Part shown: positions 8,149 to 55,874 of the stretch, one piece after another
Layout: the number at the start of each line of letters is the position of its first letter
Position numbering within the stretch: position 1 is the stretch's first letter
DNA from: Clostridium pasteurianum DSM 525 = ATCC 6013
GTDB lineage: Bacteria; Bacillota; Clostridia; Clostridiales; Clostridiaceae
DNA: 64,000 nucleotides
Reading direction: 5' to 3'
Assembly: GCF_000807255.1 (NCBI RefSeq)
Contig: NZ_CP009268.1
Coordinates: forward strand, 2,386,384 to 2,450,383
Notes under the pieces: generated by a model
The model's input: the letters and a program-made list of their open reading frames with translations, nothing else
Told to the model about the DNA's origin: nothing
Database searches by the model: none
Made by a program: the position numbers and the translations under genes

Positions 8149-9279
8149 CTAGGCTTTTCCATCCCACATATTCAACTTTTCTTTTTTAAACTCCTCAAAA
8201 TAATCTCCATCTATAGAATTTCTTATGTCTTCCATAAGTTTATTATAAAAATAGAGATTATGAAGGACACATAACCTTAACGCAAGCATTTCTTTGGCTT
8301 TAAATAGATGTCTTATATAAGCCCTTGAATAGTTTCTACAAGCAGGACATTCGCATCCTTCATCTATTGGTGATGAATCCAATTCATATTTTGCGTTGAA
8401 TAGATTTATTTTACCATATTTTGTGAACACATGTCCATGTCTTCCATTTCTAGCTGGAAGAACACAATCAAAAAAATCTACTCCCCTTGATACTGCTTCC
8501 AGAATGTTGCTTGGGAGACCTACTCCCATTAAATAAATGGGCTTATTCTGTGGCAGGTGTGGAACTACCACATCTATAATCCTATACATTTCTTCATGGG
8601 TTTCTCCTACTGCAAGTCCTCCAATAGCATATCCATCCAAATCAAATTTTGAAATAGTTTTAGCATGTTCTATTCTTATATCATCATAGATGCCACCTTG
8701 GTTTATGGCAAAAAGCATTTGTTTTTTATTTATAGTATCTTCAAGAGAGTTAAGTCTATCCATTTCATCCTTACACCTTTGCAGCCATCTTGTAGTTCTG
8801 GCTACGGAATTTTCTACATAACTTCTCGAAGAGGGATTTGGAATACACTCATCAAATGCCATAGCTATAGTAGATGCTAAATTGCTTTGAATTTGCATAC
8901 TTTCCTCTGGTCCCATAAAGATTTTTCTACCATCTATGTGAGAGCTAAAATATACTCCTTCTTCCTTTATTTTTCTTATATTAGATAAAGAAAATACTTG
9001 AAATCCTCCAGAGTCCGTCAAAATTGGTCTATCCCAATTCATAAATTTATGTAGACCACCTAATTGCTTAACAATTTTATTTCCTGGTCTTAAACTTAAA
9101 TGATATGTATTTGAAAGCTGCACTTGACAATTTATTTCCTTTAAATCCATAGTAGATACTGCCCCTTTTATAGCAGCCAAAGTACCTACATTCATAAACA
9201 CAGGAGTTTGTATAACTCCATGGGTCGTTGTAAATTCTCCTCTTCTCACCTTACCAGTGGTTTTTAGTAATTTGTACAT
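8149..9279 (-). CDS. tgt: tRNA-guanine transglycosylase
   Basis: Exchanges guanine 34 in GUN-anticodon tRNAs for the queuine precursor preQ1. The 376-residue length is standard. Visible motifs are the catalytic DSGGFQVFSL near residue 90, the second aspartate in RGVDFFDCVLPARNGRHG, and a C-terminal zinc site (CECPACRNY with a distal His in CVLHN). It is followed by yajC and preceded by queA, the next step in queuosine synthesis. A repeat element (9307-9436) separates it from queA. Confidence 0.97.
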   Translation of the reverse strand: MYKLLKTTGKVRRGEFTTTHGVIQTPVFMNVGTLAAIKGAVSTMDLKEINCQVQLSNTYHLSLRPGNKIVKQLGGLHKFMNWDRPILTDSGGFQVFSLSNIRKIKEEGVYFSSHIDGRKIFMGPEESMQIQSNLASTIAMAFDECIPNPSSRSYVENSVARTTRWLQRCKDEMDRLNSLEDTINKKQMLFAINQGGIYDDIRIEHAKTISKFDLDGYAIGGLAVGETHEEMYRIIDVVVPHLPQNKPIYLMGVGLPSNILEAVSRGVDFFDCVLPARNGRHGHVFTKYGKINLFNAKYELDSSPIDEGCECPACRNYSRAYIRHLFKAKEMLALRLCVLHNLYFYNKLMEDIRNSIDGDYFEEFKKEKLNMWDGKA

Positions 9280-15630: not shown

Positions 15631-16839
15631 TCATTTAATTTTGGCTTTTTCTAATGCTTCTTGTGTACTTACAATAATCCCCTCAGAACTTGCACTAGCT
15701 CCAGATACTACGTCCACTTCTGTTGATTGGGCTTTTATTATTTCATTTGGTATTATATTTATGACTTTTTCATAGTATCCTTGTGTGCCCTCCGTTTGTT
15801 TTGCTTTAATATCTACAATTTTTCCATCTTTAATGGTTACCGAAACTTGTACATTAGGTTTAACATAAATAGAAGAATTTCCCGTATAAATACCATCTTT
15901 ATACTTAACTTTATTTAATGACTTTTTGCTTTGAACTGTATTCACCGTTGCTTCCATAGCTATATAATTTTTATTTACAGCTGCACCGGCCATACCATTA
16001 GCAAAATATATCACTCCAAAACTAACTATAGCAACTAAACTCACTACTGTTGCATTAATATTTTTATTAAATATATCTGTTTTTATATTTTTTCTAGGAC
16101 ATATTTCTACACATTTCAAACAATTTATACACTCACCATTATGAATACTATTAAACTTATATAATGATAATCCCATAGAACAATTATCTGTACAAATTCT
16201 ACAACTGCCACATCTTTCTTTTAATTTACTAATTTTAAAAGGTGCTATTTTAGAGCTTAATACAAATAAAGCACCTAAGGGACATAGATATCTGCAAAAA
16301 AATCTCTCAATTAATGCAGATCCAATTAATATAAATACTAAAACTATAAACCCTAAAATTAAACTACTGTTAATACTCCAAAATTCAATTATTCCAGCAA
16401 AAGCCTCCCAAGGATTACTAATCTTAAAAATTTTACTTTTCATCGTCCATGAAAAAATTATTATAAGCATTAAAATCACATATTTTGCGTATTTCAAAAT
16501 AGAATCTGCTTGTCTATCTAATTTAAAATTAATCTTAAATACCTTTTTTATTGATAGATAAATTAAATCATTTAATGTTCCAAAAGCACAAATAAATCCA
16601 CAAAAAAATCTTCCTAAAAATATAGTCATAATTGCAATGGTTATAATTTCAATTAAATTAGGATACATCTGTATAAAATTAAAATTACCTTTAATAATTT
16701 CCAAATATACATTTTTTATTTCACTAAATATTAATGAAAATAGTCCTGGAAATAATATCAAAAATATAATTTGTAAAATAATTCTTATTATTTTTATTTT
16801 ATGTAATTTCCAATTGTAATTTCTAATTCTTTTTAACAT
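15631..16839 (-). CDS. Membrane 4Fe-4S ferredoxin / FMN-binding protein (NosR/NapH-like plus RnfG-like domain)
   Basis: A 402-residue electron-transfer membrane protein. I choose the ATG at 16839 because AAGGAGG precedes it; an upstream start at 16893 lacks this. Membrane helices carry FFCGFIC and FFCRYLCPLGAL, the NapH/NosR-type motifs. Two ferredoxin motifs follow (CGSCRICTDNC and CINCLKCVEICP). After another helix comes an extracytoplasmic FMN-binding domain with VVSGASASSEG, where flavin is normally attached covalently to Thr/Ser. It probably passes electrons across the membrane to an external flavin. It is divergent from the ABC transporter at 17313. The partner is not known. Confidence 0.85.
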   Translation of the reverse strand: MLKRIRNYNWKLHKIKIIRIILQIIFLILFPGLFSLIFSEIKNVYLEIIKGNFNFIQMYPNLIEIITIAIMTIFLGRFFCGFICAFGTLNDLIYLSIKKVFKINFKLDRQADSILKYAKYVILMLIIIFSWTMKSKIFKISNPWEAFAGIIEFWSINSSLILGFIVLVFILIGSALIERFFCRYLCPLGALFVLSSKIAPFKISKLKERCGSCRICTDNCSMGLSLYKFNSIHNGECINCLKCVEICPRKNIKTDIFNKNINATVVSLVAIVSFGVIYFANGMAGAAVNKNYIAMEATVNTVQSKKSLNKVKYKDGIYTGNSSIYVKPNVQVSVTIKDGKIVDIKAKQTEGTQGYYEKVINIIPNEIIKAQSTEVDVVSGASASSEGIIVSTQEALEKAKIK

Positions 16840-17144
16840 TTTTAACCTCCTTAATTTATTGATTAAAATTTTAGTAAAGCTATGCAAAGCCAATTATTAA
16901 GTATTCCAATATGTTTGCTTATATATTAAAAGCTTTATTCTTCTTTGTCAAGAGAACTATATAAATTTACTATTCCCTTAAATTTTACTTTAAATTTTTA
17001 TTGTTATTATTGTTTTTTTTAAAGAATATGTGTAATAATTAATTAAATTTCAACAATGAAAATGCAAAAATAAGAAATAAAATTTATGTATTACATGAAT
17101 AATGTAGAACTTATGTAGAATCTATTAATAAAAAGTAAATCATA

Positions 17145-17193
17145 TTGACAATGGTATTAAAAAGTGTTAACATAGTAATCAAATATGATTACT
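17145..17193 (+). promoter_or_regulatory. Promoter with palindromic operator for the ABC transporter operon
   Basis: TTGACA (17145-17150) and TAACAT (17168-17173) are spaced by 17 bases. Directly downstream, AGTAATC-AAATAT-GATTACT (17174-17193) is a perfect 7-base inverted repeat covering the expected transcription start, where a repressor would block initiation. The remaining gap 16840-17144 is AT-rich promoter DNA for the divergent Fe-S gene. Confidence 0.65.
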
Positions 17194-17224
17194 TGATTTA
17201 TTGATTTTTAAGTGATACAGTTGA

Positions 17225-17275
17225 CCAGAAGGCTGGAGACTAGATATCTATTTTTTAGATGTCTAGTCTTTTGTT
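17225..17275 (+). terminator. Leader hairpins and intrinsic terminator upstream of the ABC operon
   Basis: A small hairpin CCAG-AAGG-CTGG (17225-17236) is followed by GACTAGATATCTA / TAGATGTCTAGTC (17238-17264) and TTTTGTTAT. The terminator lies between the promoter and the first codon, so the operon is probably controlled by attenuation or a small riboregulator. I do not recognise a described riboswitch class. Confidence 0.7.
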
Positions 17276-17312: not shown

Positions 17313-18170
17313 ATGAGCGAAATAATTGAAAACGTACATGAAGAAAGAGAAGATAATGATTACAAAGTTACCATTAAAAATATAAAAAAATCCTATACTG
17401 TAATATCAGATGAAGGAAAAACAGATGAAGAATTTTTAGCATTGGAAAATTTCAATTTACAGATAAAAAAAGGTGAATTTATAACTATAGTTGGGCCTAG
17501 TGGTTGCGGTAAATCTACTTTCTTAGATATTTTAGCTGGATTATCTAAACCTACTTCTGGTGAAATATATATTGACGGCAAATTAATAACAGGTCCAGAC
17601 CTTGATAGAGGAATTATTCTTCAGGGATATGCATTATTTCCATGGCTAAATGTAACACAAAACATTGAATTTGGACTTGAAATAAAAGGAATTTCAAAAG
17701 CTAAAAGAAAAGAAATAAGTGCTAAATTTATTAATTTAGTAGGATTGGATAAGTTTAAGAATAGATATCCTCATGAATTATCAGGCGGTATGAAACAAAG
17801 AGTGGCAATTGCCAGGGCCCTCGCCTATGATCCGGAAGTTTTACTTATGGATGAACCCTTTGCAGCTGTAGATGCTCAAACCAGAGAATCACTGCAGGAA
17901 GAATTATTAATTATTTGGGAAAAGACAAATAAAACTATTGTATTTATAACGCATAGTATTGAAGAAGCAATATTTCTAGCAGATAGAGTAGTAGTAATGT
18001 CTTCTAACCCCGGCAAGATTGAAGAAATTATTAAAATAAGTTTACGAAGACCTCGAAATACTTCTGATGTAATAAACTCTAAAGAATTTTCTAAGATATG
18101 GAACCTTCTTCACAATAATAAGCCTAACAATAAGACAAATGAAAAAGCTTCCCTGAAAGTTTCTCTATAA
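17313..18170 (+). CDS. ABC transporter ATP-binding protein, nitrate/sulfonate/taurine (NrtD/SsuB) type
   Basis: Cytoplasmic ATPase of an importer. The 285-residue protein shows Walker A GPSGCGKST, Q-loop LQGYALFPW, signature LSGGMKQRVAIARAL, Walker B VLLMDEPF and the H-loop ITHS. The NrtD/SsuB/TauB subfamily normally serves importers of nitrate, sulfonates, taurine or thiamine precursors. A good ribosome binding site (AGGAGG) precedes the ATG. It is first in an operon with two permeases but no substrate-binding protein, so the substrate cannot be assumed from the family. Confidence 0.92.
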   Translation: MSEIIENVHEEREDNDYKVTIKNIKKSYTVISDEGKTDEEFLALENFNLQIKKGEFITIVGPSGCGKSTFLDILAGLSKPTSGEIYIDGKLITGPDLDRGIILQGYALFPWLNVTQNIEFGLEIKGISKAKRKEISAKFINLVGLDKFKNRYPHELSGGMKQRVAIARALAYDPEVLLMDEPFAAVDAQTRESLQEELLIIWEKTNKTIVFITHSIEEAIFLADRVVVMSSNPGKIEEIIKISLRRPRNTSDVINSKEFSKIWNLLHNNKPNNKTNEKASLKVSL

Positions 18171-18247: not shown

Positions 18248-19396
18248 ATGAGTGAAACAAAGATAAATTATAGTTATTATATATGGAGATATAGTGGAGT
18301 TGCATTATTTTTAATTCTGTGGGAATTTTTTTCTCGAGTTGGTGTTTTAAATCCTCAATTTATCCCACCCTTTTCAAAAATCCTAGGACAAATTTATATC
18401 TTATGGTTTAACAATGCCTTATTTACAAATATTATGGTAAGTTTATGGAGAGTCTTATTGGGACTTATTATAGCTTCTATTATTGCAATACCTCTGGGGT
18501 TCTTACTCGGTGGTTGGTTCAGCGATATTGCTGATTGGATGGATCCACTTTTTAGAATATTTGGGCAAGTAAATCCTTTTTCATTAATGCCTATATTCAT
18601 ACTTTTTTTTGGAATGGGTGAAACTGCAAAACTTGCAGTAGTTGCCTGGGTATGTATATGGCCGGTTTTATATAATACTATATTAGGTGCTAGAAGTGCA
18701 GATAAGCTTATAATAAAAACTGCTGTTTCCATGAATGTATCTAACTGGCAGTTGTTCAGGAAAGTACTTTTACCATCAGCTGAGCCTTCAATTTTTGCTG
18801 GCCTTAGAGTTGGAGCGGAGATGTCCTTTTTTATGTTGATTGCAGCAGAAATGATAGGTGCAAGTGCAGGATTAGGATGGCTTTTTCATAATGCTTCCAT
18901 GAATAATCAGATTCCTCGCATGTATTCAGCTGGTTTATTTATTGTGTTTTTTGGAGTTATATTAAATAGATCTTTAATATATGTTCAAAACAAGTTGTTT
19001 TTTTGGAAGGAAGCAGAGCACGGTTTTAGCTTTTCTAAAGTAAACAAGTCAAGTACTAAATTTGGTAAATTTCAAATTTCAGCATTGACTATATTAATAA
19101 TTTTAATTATAGGTATTGGAAGCTATGAAGTTAATTATGCCAATACTGTAGAATTTAGCAGTAAATATAGTAATAGTAATGCTCCTGGTCATATGGATCA
19201 TATGGATATGAATAATAAGAAAGATTCCAATAATACAAATACCACAAACACTGATAATAAAACTAATTCTGATCATATGAATATGGATAATCATAACAAA
19301 GTTGATGGTTCCTCTAAAAACATGCAAGATGATAGTTCAAACCATATGAATATGAATGATAGTAATAAATCTAGCCATATGAACATGGATAAATAA
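18248..19396 (+). CDS. ABC transporter permease with a tethered His/Met-rich extracytoplasmic tail
   Basis: Residues 1-250 or so form a SsuC/TauC-type permease with six membrane helices and the EAA-like loop around AVSMNVSNWQLFRKVLLPSAEPS. The 382-residue protein is about 120 longer than the family. The extra part has one more hydrophobic helix (ISALTILIILIIGIGSY) and then about 85 residues almost entirely Asn, Asp, Ser, Lys, His and Met, with repeated metal-ligand motifs (HMDHMDM, DHMNMDNH, NHMNMND, SHMNMDK). An added helix would place the tail outside the cell. I infer a metal-capturing tail, perhaps for copper or nickel, in place of a binding protein. Confidence 0.85.
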   Translation: MSETKINYSYYIWRYSGVALFLILWEFFSRVGVLNPQFIPPFSKILGQIYILWFNNALFTNIMVSLWRVLLGLIIASIIAIPLGFLLGGWFSDIADWMDPLFRIFGQVNPFSLMPIFILFFGMGETAKLAVVAWVCIWPVLYNTILGARSADKLIIKTAVSMNVSNWQLFRKVLLPSAEPSIFAGLRVGAEMSFFMLIAAEMIGASAGLGWLFHNASMNNQIPRMYSAGLFIVFFGVILNRSLIYVQNKLFFWKEAEHGFSFSKVNKSSTKFGKFQISALTILIILIIGIGSYEVNYANTVEFSSKYSNSNAPGHMDHMDMNNKKDSNNTNTTNTDNKTNSDHMNMDNHNKVDGSSKNMQDDSSNHMNMNDSNKSSHMNMDK

Positions 19397-19424: not shown

Positions 19425-20198
19425 ATGTCAAAGAAAAAAAATGATACTTTTTATAAATTTTTGATTATATTCATATTCCTTTCAATATGGGAAATCAGCA
19501 GTAAATTAGAAATACTAGACCCTCAATTTGTTCCATCTTTTTCCAGTATACTGATAACTCTATGGACCATGCTTCTTTCTCAAAACCTCATGCTAAGTGT
19601 TGCTATAAGTGTACAGAGGGCTTTACTTGGACTTGCTATTTCAATTATAATCGGTATACCGTTAGGATTTTTACTTGGAGGCTGGTTTTCCAAATTGGAC
19701 CTAATAGCAGAGCCTGTTATAGAGATTTTTTCTCAAATTAATCCATTTCTATTGTTTCACGTTTTTATTTTAATTCTAGGTATTGGAGAAAGTACTAAAG
19801 TAAGTGTTATTGCGTGGACATGCATATGGCCCATAATGTTTAACACAGTTTACGGCATCAGAAATATGGATGCCTTAATATTAAAAGAAGCCAGATCCTT
19901 TGGACTTGGCAGATGGAAATTATTTCATAAAGTTGTTATACCAGCAATCTTACCCTCAATCTTTGTGGGGCTTAGAATTAGTGCAGGTTATTCATTTTTT
20001 ATGCTTATAGCAGCAGAAATGATGGGAGCCAGTTCAGGACTTGGATGGCTGCTTTTAAGCTATCAGCAAACCTATGATATAAAGAGGATATTTGCAACAG
20101 CACTTGTAATAGCTTTTCTTGGGCTAATTACAGACATTATAATAAAAGCTATTCAAAACAGATTTGTAGTTAATACACTTATCGAAGAAAAAAATTAA
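19425..20198 (+). CDS. ABC transporter permease, SsuC/TauC type
   Basis: Second permease of the operon, 257 residues, the usual length, with six membrane helices and the EAA loop around EARSFGLGRWKLFHKVVIPAILPS. It is clearly a paralogue of the preceding permease (both contain GIPLGFLLGGWFS-like and FFMLIAAEM stretches) but lacks the His/Met-rich tail. The two probably form a heterodimer. It starts 28 bases after the previous gene and is followed by a terminator. Confidence 0.92.
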   Translation: MSKKKNDTFYKFLIIFIFLSIWEISSKLEILDPQFVPSFSSILITLWTMLLSQNLMLSVAISVQRALLGLAISIIIGIPLGFLLGGWFSKLDLIAEPVIEIFSQINPFLLFHVFILILGIGESTKVSVIAWTCIWPIMFNTVYGIRNMDALILKEARSFGLGRWKLFHKVVIPAILPSIFVGLRISAGYSFFMLIAAEMMGASSGLGWLLLSYQQTYDIKRIFATALVIAFLGLITDIIIKAIQNRFVVNTLIEEKN

Positions 20199-20215: not shown

Positions 20216-20266
20216 GTACTTTGCAAAATGGATTTAAAAATAGATTCCCTTGCAAAGTACTTTTTC
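20216..20266 (+). terminator. Rho-independent terminator of the ABC operon
   Basis: GTACTTTGCAA (20216-20226) pairs with TTGCAAAGTAC (20250-20260), followed by TTTTTCTT. Confidence 0.85.
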
Positions 20267-23064: not shown

Positions 23065-24372
23065 ATGTATAATAATGACTTTTTTGATTATCCACATTAC
23101 TCACCCGAAAATACTTATCCATTTTTTAACGCAGCAATAGAAGATTTTTATAGATTTAATTATAATAATGATTTTAATGGAACTGAAGATTTTGATGAAT
23201 TTATAGAAGAAAACTATTCTGATAACACTAGATCTTCAGATATAGAGACAAATGTAATATTGGAATTAATTTACAATAACGAACCTGGTCTCTTTTCCAA
23301 TTTTAAACGATTCAGAATAAGTACCGAGATGGTTAATAATTTTTTCAGAGAAGCTATACCCTATGCCCTAGACAATAAGACAAAATATAGAGGAGATATA
23401 GAAACATTAACAAATAGAATATATGATGATTTTAAAAAAGAAAACTATCCTGCTGTTTTTTCAGTTTTATCTGCTGGAGTACCTGAAGATATAGTTGATA
23501 ATACCTTTAAAGGTGTAATAAGCTTCACTATTGGTGAAAGATTCATCCCGCCCTCTATGCTTGACAGATGGAGTCAGTGGGAGGATTTAGGCGGAATATT
23601 GAGTTCTGCTCCTGCGGTTTCTTCCTGGGCACCTAATAGATTGGATACATTTGTACGTGGAACTGATAATGCTCTCTGGCACAAATGGTGGAATGGTTCT
23701 AGATGGAGTGACTGGGAAAGCCTTGGTGGCGTATTAACCTCTGCTCCAGCTGCTGTTTCCTGGGGATCAAACAGAATTGATGTATTCGCTCGTGGTACAG
23801 ATAATGCTATGTGGCATATTTGGTGGAATGGTTCTAGGTGGAGTAACTGGGAAAGTCTTGGTGGCGTATTGACCTCTTCTCCTGCAGTTTCTTCTTGGGC
23901 ACCTAATAGATTAGATACCTTCGTACGTGGAACTGATAACGCTCTCTGGCACAAATGGTGGAATGGTTCTAGATGGAGTGACTGGGAAAGTCTCGGTGGA
24001 AATCTGACTTCTGCTCCTGCTGCTGTTTCTTGGGAACCAAACAGAATTGATGTGTTTGCAAGAGGTCAAGGCAATCGTCTATTACATTTATGGTGGAATG
24101 GTTCTAGATGGAGCAATTGGCAGAACCTTGGCGGTAATATAACCTCTGCCCCTGCAGTTTCTTCAAGATCATCCAATAGACTTGAAGTATTTACAAGGAA
24201 TAGAAACAATCAGTTAATCACTATGTCCTGGAATGGTTCTAGATGGAGCAATTGGAGAAATCTTGACGGCACTATAACCTCTGCTCCTGCTGCTGTTTCC
24301 TGGGGTCCAAACAGAACTGATGTATTTGCAAGAGGTACAAATAATGCTATGTGGCACATCTGGAGGAATTAA
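23065..24372 (+). CDS. Lectin-like protein with PLL/DUF346-type beta-propeller repeats
   Basis: A 435-residue protein without a signal peptide. Residues 1 to about 165 form an acidic, Asn/Tyr/Phe-rich N-terminal domain that I do not recognise. The rest is six tandem units of about 47 residues built on WSxWESLGG, LTSAPAxxSW, NRxDxFxRGTDNAxWHxWWNGS. This pattern matches the bacterial PLL-type lectins that fold into beta-propellers and bind fucose or related sugars; those have seven blades, and here six units are visible, so the N-terminal part may complete the propeller. The repeats are very similar at the DNA level, a sign of recent expansion. AAGGAGG precedes the ATG. Confidence 0.8.
   Translation: MYNNDFFDYPHYSPENTYPFFNAAIEDFYRFNYNNDFNGTEDFDEFIEENYSDNTRSSDIETNVILELIYNNEPGLFSNFKRFRISTEMVNNFFREAIPYALDNKTKYRGDIETLTNRIYDDFKKENYPAVFSVLSAGVPEDIVDNTFKGVISFTIGERFIPPSMLDRWSQWEDLGGILSSAPAVSSWAPNRLDTFVRGTDNALWHKWWNGSRWSDWESLGGVLTSAPAAVSWGSNRIDVFARGTDNAMWHIWWNGSRWSNWESLGGVLTSSPAVSSWAPNRLDTFVRGTDNALWHKWWNGSRWSDWESLGGNLTSAPAAVSWEPNRIDVFARGQGNRLLHLWWNGSRWSNWQNLGGNITSAPAVSSRSSNRLEVFTRNRNNQLITMSWNGSRWSNWRNLDGTITSAPAAVSWGPNRTDVFARGTNNAMWHIWRN
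23566..24369 (+). repeat. Tandem 141-base coding repeats in the lectin-like gene
   Basis: Six units of about 141 bases. Units alternate between a type with AVSSWAPNRLDTFVRG and a type with AAVSWGxNRIDVFARG, so the higher-order period is about 282 bases. Later units are more diverged. Confidence 0.85.
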
Positions 24373-51609: not shown

Positions 51610-51639
51610 AATACATAAATAAATACGAAATTTAAAAAA

Positions 51640-51847
51640 CCTTGAAAGGGAACAGTAAGTATAAGAGATGTCCAAAAGAGAGCGGGGGTAGCTGAAAACC
51701 TGTGGATAATTGTATGCCGAATCTCACCCTGGAGTTGTAGACTGAATTAAGTAGGTTGCGCCGGTTAAAACCGTTATATAAATCAAGAAATAAATTGGGT
51801 GGTACCGCGAAACAGTCTCCTCGCCCCAGGGCGGAGTACTGTTTTTT
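51640..51847 (+). promoter_or_regulatory. T-box riboswitch 1 (specifier CTC, leucine)
   Basis: A complete tRNA-sensing leader. It has the stem I region with AGAGAGCGGGGGTAGCTG, a specifier loop GAAT-CTC-ACCCTGGAG, and the T-box sequence TGGGTGGTACCGCGA at 51796-51810. The terminator ACAGTCTCC...GGAGTACTGT is followed by a long T run. Alignment with T-box 2 places the specifier at CTC, a leucine codon. Uncharged tRNA-Leu should favour antitermination. Confidence 0.9.
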
Positions 51848-51867
51848 ATTTTTATTTAAAATTAAAT

Positions 51868-52078
51868 GCCATGACAGGGAAGAGTATGCATAGTATTATT
51901 CAAAAGAGAGCAGGAGAAGCTGAAAACCTGTGGATACCTATTATGTTGAAAATCACCCTAGAGCTGCAGGCTGAAGTTAGTAAGCTGTGCCGGTCTATTG
52001 ATCGTTATCTTACAAGAAAATTTTTGGGTGGTACCGCGAACAGACACTCGCCCCAGGGCATTGTGTCTATTTTTTTGT
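51868..52078 (+). promoter_or_regulatory. T-box riboswitch 2 (specifier ATC, isoleucine)
   Basis: A second complete leader in tandem, with AGAGAGCAGGAGAAGCTG, the specifier region GAAA-ATC-ACCCTAGAG, the T-box TGGGTGGTACCGCGA (52025-52039) and the terminator AGACAC...GTGTCT plus a T run at about 52042-52077. The specifier reads ATC, an isoleucine codon. Transcription must pass both terminators to reach ilvB. Confidence 0.9.
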
Positions 52079-55442: not shown

Positions 55443-55497
55443 ATTATACTTTAAGTCTTAATAAAAAATATAAAGGCCTAAAATATTAAATTAGGTT

Positions 55498-55567
55498 CAT
55501 CCATAGTCAAAGATTTAAGGTACCTTGGTAGAAACTCTTGACCCATATTGTCAAGATTATACGGATG
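55498..55567 (-). promoter_or_regulatory. Purine riboswitch, guanine type
   Basis: The aptamer is nearly consensus: CGTATAATCTTGACAATATGG, then GTCAAGAGTTTCTACC, AAGGTACCTTAAATCTTT and GACTATGGATG. P1 pairs CATCC with GGATG. The specificity base in the GACTATG junction is C, as in xpt (guanine/hypoxanthine), rather than U as in add (adenine). Confidence 0.93.
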
Positions 55568-55874
55568 TTTATTATACGTGAAAGATTTTATCATTTAATA
55601 TTGCAAAAGTCAATATAGTTTTTATTACTTGTTTTATAATGTGAATTCCCATTGAATAAATTAAAATTCTCTTCTATCTTAAATAATCTGTACTATATCA
55701 TATCTATACTAAGTTAAATATCTTATTTTAATATCAATTTTAATAATTAATTTATTATATAGATTTGCATGAAGATTTGAAATATATGTCATTTTAATAT
55801 ATTTAATTATATAGTATTTTTTCATTATCGTGTAATTTAAACCACTTCATTTGTTATAAGATAAGCAGAAATAT
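55568..55874. other. Intergenic region upstream of the guanine riboswitch
   Basis: AT-rich DNA between the permease leader and the response regulator stop. It should contain the minus-strand promoter of the permease; I see no gene. Confidence 0.5.

Follow-up and report, generated by a model that had tools for sequence, protein, structure and literature searches.

The closest described systems include the ABC importers SsuABC, TauABC and NrtABCD-CmpABCD as well as nitrogenase-like C–S-cleaving enzymes. In Rhodobacter capsulatus the SsuCAB importer is needed together with the nitrogenase-like isethionate reductase and, according to the excerpts available of that work, the corresponding 26-kb locus comprises an SsuABC-type importer and IsrBHDK, i.e., the genes of the radical SAM protein B and of H, D and K (PMC11423573). 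PDB entry 9FMG, whose molecule name reads only “Nitrogenase”, is identified in the accessible part of another paper as the MarDK-H complex of methylthio-alkane reductase (PMC12552129). Furthermore, the available portion of a preprint (PMC10418091) describes type 1 mlp gene clusters having close MarHDK homologues and, among other sulfur genes, methionine transporters; the term “SAM riboswitch” occurs in the available text of an earlier version.

The operon under study belongs to a clostridial genome (G000; 4,352,101 bases in one contig) and lies within a 64,000-nt stretch that is hereafter, in its entirety, called the window and to which all coordinates refer unless preceded by a locus handle. 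It encodes an ATPase followed by two permeases, T and P, the former being extended by a seventh hydrophobic helix and a tail rich in His and Met. The explanation that we favor, with moderate confidence, is that ATPase–T–P is a NitT/TauT-type importer of organosulfur compounds for C–S-cleaving nitrogenase-like enzymes and uses binding proteins encoded elsewhere.

The operon and its two permeases

Leader, ATPase, T, P and a terminator-like hairpin follow one another in this order and in one direction, the ribosome-binding sites of the three genes being recognizable by eye. The features of the locus are:

15631–16893 (−): divergent neighbor, a NapH-like membrane 4Fe-4S protein with Fer4_5 and FMN_bind domains (Pfam)
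17145–17173 (+): sigma-70-like promoter TTGACA-N17-TAACAT, located by eye; both hexamers also occur in G148
17174–17193 (+): perfect palindrome AGTAATCA-AATA-TGATTACT, a possible operator, from a genome pattern search
17220–17240 (+): leader RNA hairpin GTTGACCAGAAGGCTGGAGAC, defined by pattern sites and covariation
17236–17273 (+): terminator-like hairpin beginning inside the GAGAC of the leader, −20.3 kcal/mol
17313–18170 (+): ABC ATPase of 285 aa, SaoA/NtrCD/TauB-like (Pfam ABC_tran; best NCBIfam match SaoA)
18248–19396 (+): T, permease of 382 aa with an extra helix and a His/Met-rich tail (ORF, Pfam, alignment)
19055–19141 (+): seventh hydrophobic helix of T, residues 270–298 (hydropathy)
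19142–19393 (+): His/Met/Asn/Asp-rich tail of T, residues 299–382 (composition, shuffles)
19425–20198 (+): P, partner permease of 257 aa (Pfam; tree clade 100/98)
20216–20260 (+): terminator-like hairpin after the operon (fold)

Both T (70.6 bits) and P (98.7 bits) exceed the cut-off of the Pfam profile BPD_transp_1 (26.4 bits), as expected of the binding-protein-dependent permeases of type I ABC importers. By sequence, CmpB and a nitrate permease are the solved permeases nearest to T; residues 16–250 of T align with residues 32–274 of the 280 of CmpB and the sequence past residue ~255 is extra. A comparison of the lengths of T and P puts the extension at ~125 aa, in agreement with the ~120 residues including an additional hydrophobic helix that had been recognized in an earlier sequence-only reading of this DNA. 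The curated NCBIfam cut-offs of SaoA and SaoP (360 and 295 bits) are reached neither by the ATPase (261.1) nor by T (121.5) and P (133.7), and membership of the operon in the SAO system was accordingly rejected; those of SsuC and TauC (347 and 342 bits) are likewise above the scores of T (92.1 and 111) and P (119.7 and 114.3). A phage link of the permease was also discarded, as none of the 22 phage records matched did so over 80% of the query, the best 5 of the 22 having 30–31% identity.

Neither of the two kinds of SsuA-like binding protein studied was found between positions 9001 and 30000 of the window and none was recognized by eye among the ORFs between 14000 and 24500, so that the description of the operon as an ATPase and two permeases devoid of a binding protein proved correct. 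The divergent neighbor has a paralogue in the same genome (L118:12373–13545; 51.5% identity over 394 residues), 138 nt upstream of which there is a leader RNA of the type found in the window operon.

Tailed T permeases are present in at least nine of 206 genomes of the family among the matches listed (the window genome, G148, G136, G134, G127, G126, G125, G131 and G128), each beside a P. A peptide-pattern scan of contigs yielded three tailed records, from Clostridium tyrobutyricum, Clostridiaceae bacterium BL-3 and an uncultured Clostridium, as well as one further, distant permease without the T extension. Three tail-less homologues, collectively designated T′, were read in G032, G003 and G008, a fourth (G032:C239:1232–2071; 39% identity) being outside this set. 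A tree was built of 46 permeases of the fetched regions, L053_01 and the truncated L036_00 having been excluded beforehand; in it T and T′ form one clade (100/99) and the partner P another (100/98); the T′ rows are long branches, so that their placement is less sure than that of the nine tailed rows. In each of the 12 T/T′ loci read (nine tailed and three T′) T or T′ has P as its immediate neighbor, and we infer that the two permeases form a heterodimer. The T proteins of the window, G148, G134 and G136 constitute a single clade (100/99), and the several flank genes that the window and G148 loci have in common indicate that these two occupy the same chromosomal place. A 435-aa ORF with repeated WNGSRWS units is found at 23065–24372 of the window and has a relative near the T locus of G148 (L039).

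Enzyme neighbors and binding proteins of the tailed permeases

In seven of the nine tailed loci ATPase–T–P lies among nitrogenase-like D/K or H genes, and in six of the nine D/K proteins are encoded directly after P, the D protein sharing 74–100% identity with the second D protein encoded in L043. The latter scores 810 bits against PDB 9FMG and 808 against 9D9U, to be compared with 119 for the next entry, a nitrogenase, whereas its K partner reaches 776 bits against the chains of the same two structures, the next best score being 84. The D proteins of the T′ loci L050 and L054 are 66–67% identical to that of L043 and that of L049 only 34%; G136 has T, yet its best Mar D match attains only 59%. 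In G135, a Mar-like D (85%) is accompanied by one permease, a binding protein and an ATPase, T and P being absent from the 19 kb read, which indicates that T/P are dispensable.

Among the neighbors of the tailed permeases, P recurs in all nine loci and nitrogenase-like genes and binding proteins recur in seven; the ATPase–T–P units of the window and of G148 stand alone and not among nitrogenase-like genes. The MarD homologue of the window genome (73% identical to the L043 D) is located at 1.113 Mb and the Mar-like D of G148 (74%) at 1.05 Mb, in both cases apart from T/P; no leader of the searched pattern and no SsuABC-type genes were found beside the Mar-like genes of the two genomes, and exporter-like and Opp-like ABC genes were recognized by eye 2–10 kb from the MarDK-like genes of G000. 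Thus, the MarDK–transporter vicinity seen in six of the nine tailed loci does not occur in the window genome. The nitrogenase component 1 profile Oxidored_nitro has 41 matches in the 4.35 Mb of G000, 40 of them over the cut-off; a few of the matches are pieces of a single gene.

In five of the nine tailed loci (L043, L044, L045, L047 and L048) Rfam detects a SAM riboswitch ahead of the genes that lead up to T, none being detected in L039, L042 and L046 or near the window operon. These riboswitches fit a response to sulfur or methionine starvation better than a response to metals.

As to the binding proteins, an SsuA-like one (SBP3) is encoded within 8 kb of T and on the same strand in seven of the nine tailed loci; in the same seven loci there is also another permease, with which SBP3 may in reality cooperate. 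A separate ATPase for each transporter set is found in G134 and G136. In G000 three SsuA-like lipoproteins are encoded in a row at 3.65 Mb, with no ABC permease or ATPase directly beside; one protein of this triplet was scanned and found to match Pfam NMT1. A permease–ATPase pair of the SsuBC kind is located ~6 kb from the triplet, which may serve only this pair. On the other hand, the three proteins group, in a 100/100 clade, with the binding proteins encoded at the T loci of G134 and G136, which matches the T clade; those of the other five of the seven loci belong to a different clade. The corresponding G148 triplet is 80–89% identical to that of G000 and 75–79% to the G134/G136 proteins, and each of the six binding proteins of G000 and G148 has its own leader. 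No candidate for a cognate binding protein is encoded in the operon, homologues being located at another locus in both G000 and G148; the G000 triplet may serve T/P, either exclusively or together with the permease in its vicinity. The notion of a transporter operating without a binding protein is not upheld, as seven tailed loci encode one nearby and the two remaining genomes three each at another place.

A second kind of binding protein, SBP9, endowed with a His-rich stretch, is found in the T′ loci of G032, G003 and G008, beside P only in L049 and ~7 kb from T′ in L050 and L054; all three T′ loci read also hold SBP3. Among 200 genomes of the family, close homologues of SBP9 (45–46%) are present only in G003 and G008, G032 being the source of the query; none was found in the tailed genomes, where matches do not go beyond 25–28%. 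The presence of SBP3 in the T′ and in most tailed loci speaks against the earlier suggestion that the tail replaces the binding protein, and the lack of close SBP9 homologues in the tailed genomes speaks for it, albeit as one evolutionary contrast only; the suggestion is weakened rather than abolished. SBP9 relatives at 25–33% identity often bear a Cys-Cys motif where SBP9 has His; the SsuA-like binding proteins with this conserved motif include L078, L083 and L085, that of L078 being encoded next to a P-type ATPase gene.

The leader RNA and its targets

The leader, GUUNAC-YAG-loop-CUR-GAGRC, sits between promoter and ATPase and runs into the terminator. In the short fold of the window leader AGTT pairs with GACT around CCAG/CTGG and this pairing competes with the terminator. 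A genome search with the pattern GTTNACYAGA-N1-6-CTRGAGRC gave 17 exact sites, as opposed to none for the reversed control. Of 200 genomes of the family, 28 contain matches; a class sample of 391 genomes contributed nine, of which four had already come up as family members. Since the reversed control gave two matches in the class sample, single matches outside the family may be due to chance. The palindrome adjacent to the promoter was set aside as an operator, being the only zero-mismatch site to AGTAATCANNTNTGATTACT in the genome and not fully kept in G148.

At the free Y–R position, the 112 listed sites have C-G in 61 cases, T-A in 46, T-G in 4 and C-A in 1 (Fisher p 1.5e-25, and 2e-9 for 52 distinct strings, the sites being related and the p values not to be taken literally). 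When the four-base stem was left free, complete pairing (G-U included) was found for 49 of 82 matches, three of which are CTGG/CCAG swaps. A hairpin followed by a T run with a ΔG under −6 kcal/mol is present after 41/41 distinct leader sites and in 94/205 shuffles; this threshold is weak and −13 kcal/mol separates better, with 37/41 sites and 29/205 shuffles. No Rfam match at gathering score overlapped the leader sites in the stretches scanned; the window leader remained without a match at limits as loose as E = 5, and for one other leader all matches were sub-threshold. The mechanism is most likely antitermination, whereby something would stabilize the small leader hairpin and thus release the genes that follow.

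With the addition of the CTGG-stem types, at least 20 leader sites are present in G000, each located 24–293 nt upstream of a same-strand ORF; the three additional ones come from regions that happened to be read, so that 20 is a lower bound. The leader precedes the window ATPase (by 73 nt), the three SsuA-like binding proteins, two permeases and one further ATPase; two nitrogenase-like component-1 genes, a NifB-like radical SAM protein, a DmsA-like molybdoenzyme, MoeA and TatA; an FMN/4Fe-4S membrane protein, a response regulator, an MFS gene and an alpha/beta hydrolase; and, finally, an FMN_bind protein, a flavin-type protein and a glycosyltransferase-like gene. The names MFS, TatA, NifB-like, flavin-type and glycosyltransferase were assigned by eye and the others by annotation search. 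Outside the window operon, the leader occurs in L117, L118, L119, L035, L036, L038, L043 and L120, before a dispersed set of sulfur and nitrogenase-like genes; in the window genome the operon is ~1.2 Mb away from most other targets. The sites of G000 define a testable regulon within a single clostridial genome, some of whose members are nitrogenase-like enzymes.

The presence of the leader before L119:8430–11096, L118:16175–17404 and L118:17905–18213 (DmsA-like molybdoenzyme, MoeA and TatA-like protein, respectively) places Mo enzymes on the same switch. A very Met-rich ORF of 177 aa (L113:5462–5992) is located ~3 kb from the leader-controlled hydrolase. Other regulatory RNAs of the window are two T-box leaders in tandem at 51633–52058 (+) and a purine riboswitch at 55484–55584 (−).

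The tail and the function of the importer

HM and MxM motifs are a mark of Cu(I)/Ag(I) sites. The 84-residue tail of T contains six His and ten Met, with five HM and four HMxM, as the sequence-only reading had noted in counting four or five such motifs; four HMxM were reached by none of 20,000 shuffles of the tail. HMxM is kept in all nine tailed orthologues, two to four times in each, within tails of 36 to 84 residues, and in the other eight the excess has a shuffle p of 0.0049 or less, the nine being related and not independent. In all nine the loop between TM6 and TM7 has 4–8 K+R against 0–3 D+E and, by the positive-inside rule, the tail is probably extracytoplasmic, as had been supposed; this topology is based on hydropathy and on the said rule and, as the scan splits helices, only the last segment and the preceding loop were used. 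T′ homologues possess the hydrophobic stretch of the seventh helix and lack the His/Met tail, so that the helix probably came first and the HM repeats later.

Given the architecture, which is both unusual and conserved, and the orthology, gene order and shared leader established by these comparisons, ATPase–T–P would be an SsuABC-like ABC importer having the T/P heterodimer as its permease, with a methylthio-alkane or a related thioether or sulfonate as the most likely substrate and sulfur source. The imported organosulfur would feed nitrogenase-like enzymes that cleave C–S bonds in the manner of methylthio-alkane reductase. The ancestral cluster would have been split in the window genome, so that ATPase–T–P, the MarDK-like genes and the SsuA-like lipoproteins are now at three places; the lipoproteins, under the same leader RNA, would be the probable suppliers of the substrate. 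Most simply, a cluster like that of G134 would have become scattered in the genus, the leaders staying with the transporter parts. Judging from the gene order and regulation of the relatives, it is rather probable that the importer works in an SsuABC-like manner and goes with the nitrogenase-like use of organosulfur; methylthio-alkanes are small and an importer is perhaps needless for them. By virtue of the seventh helix the tail would lie on the outer side of the membrane and could plausibly bind Cu(I) or some other soft metal there. A soft-metal role of the tail inside a sulfur importer is plausible; the tail might help to catch or strip soft-sulfur ligands or might only buffer copper at the mouth of the importer.

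The latter possibility leads to an alternative in which the sulfur importer is an ordinary one and its tail serves to buffer copper or as a shield, keeping Cu(I) off the thiol/thioether substrate or off the translocation path. A copper-type P-type ATPase and/or a SafE-cupredoxin, the two kinds of copper gene studied (clusters c11 and c13), are present in 5 of 20 regions (L037, L040, L041, L049 and L051), in L049 both being located directly before T′, and in the G000 island they lie between CysK and three binding proteins; yet neither is found in any of the nine tailed regions read (8 of the 20 regions plus positions 9001–30000 of the window), so that a shield appears possible, albeit doubtful. 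The said island (L117:2326–10842), with CysK, both copper genes and three SsuA-like binding proteins, represents in itself a copper–sulfur association. That the tail is a neutral low-complexity extension without function would agree with its variable length and with its absence from T′, but is rather improbable in the light of the HMxM frequencies, which exceed the shuffled expectation in all nine orthologues, related as these are.

The metal (Cu/Ni/Co) importer advocated by the sequence-only reading, with the tethered tail in place of a binding protein, could draw upon the conservation of an HM-rich and probably outer tail, upon the lack of a binding protein in the local operon, upon the distribution of the His-rich SBP9 and upon the fact that the nearest named families, even with scores under the cut-offs, are SaoA/SaoP of a selenocysteine-assisted organometallic system. 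However, most tailed relatives lie beside Mar-like or nitrogenase-like genes, five of the nine have the SAM riboswitch and the leader is shared; binding proteins exist near T or elsewhere in the genome; T′ loci also hold SBP3 and only one of the three has SBP9 beside P; the copper genes studied are missing from the tailed regions read; and a low-complexity tail of 84 residues would hardly fold around a substrate. Metal import is therefore quite unlikely. We attach equally little credit to a joint reading, in which Cu(I) loaded on the tethered HMxM motifs would capture thiols and thioethers outside the cell and pass them to the T/P pore, the tail taking over the role played by SBP9 in the tail-less T′ loci and the new antitermination leader RNA coordinating a dispersed regulon for nitrogenase-like sulfur scavenging.

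In the full-text literature searched, with subscription journals mostly outside, no description was found of the leader, of a tailed SsuC permease (the tail being little targeted by the searches) or of a dedicated importer for methylthio-alkane reductase. If true, the organosulfur importer that we favor would represent a specific uptake system tied to methylthio-alkane-reductase-like enzymes and would offer a genetic handle on the gathering of organic sulfur by anaerobes, and a metal-motif tail tethered to the permease of a sulfur importer would be a novelty within the reach of the searches.

With the NitT/TauT systems SsuABC, TauABC and NrtABCD-CmpABCD, ATPase–T–P has in common the ATPase and the permease fold, but it differs from them in its two different permeases, the seventh helix, the His/Met tail and the lack of a local binding protein, T and P being under the NCBIfam cut-offs of SsuC and TauC. 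The SAO system (SaoA/SaoP/SaoX) supplies the best NCBIfam names for the ATPase and the permeases, with scores under the curated cut-offs. The type 1 mlp clusters, as described in the available portion of the preprint (PMC10418091), come without mention of a tailed permease. Pairs homologous to the D/K of MarBHDK follow T–P in six of the nine tailed loci, whereas the accessible parts of the reports on this enzyme (PMC12552129; PMC9147875) describe no importer and the enzyme genes of the window genome are at another locus. With respect to SsuCAB/IsrBHDK, for which the available excerpts mention no His/Met tail, the D/K following T–P in the relatives are of the Mar type; the likeness consists in the association, at one locus, of an SsuABC-type importer with a nitrogenase-like C–S-cleaving enzyme.
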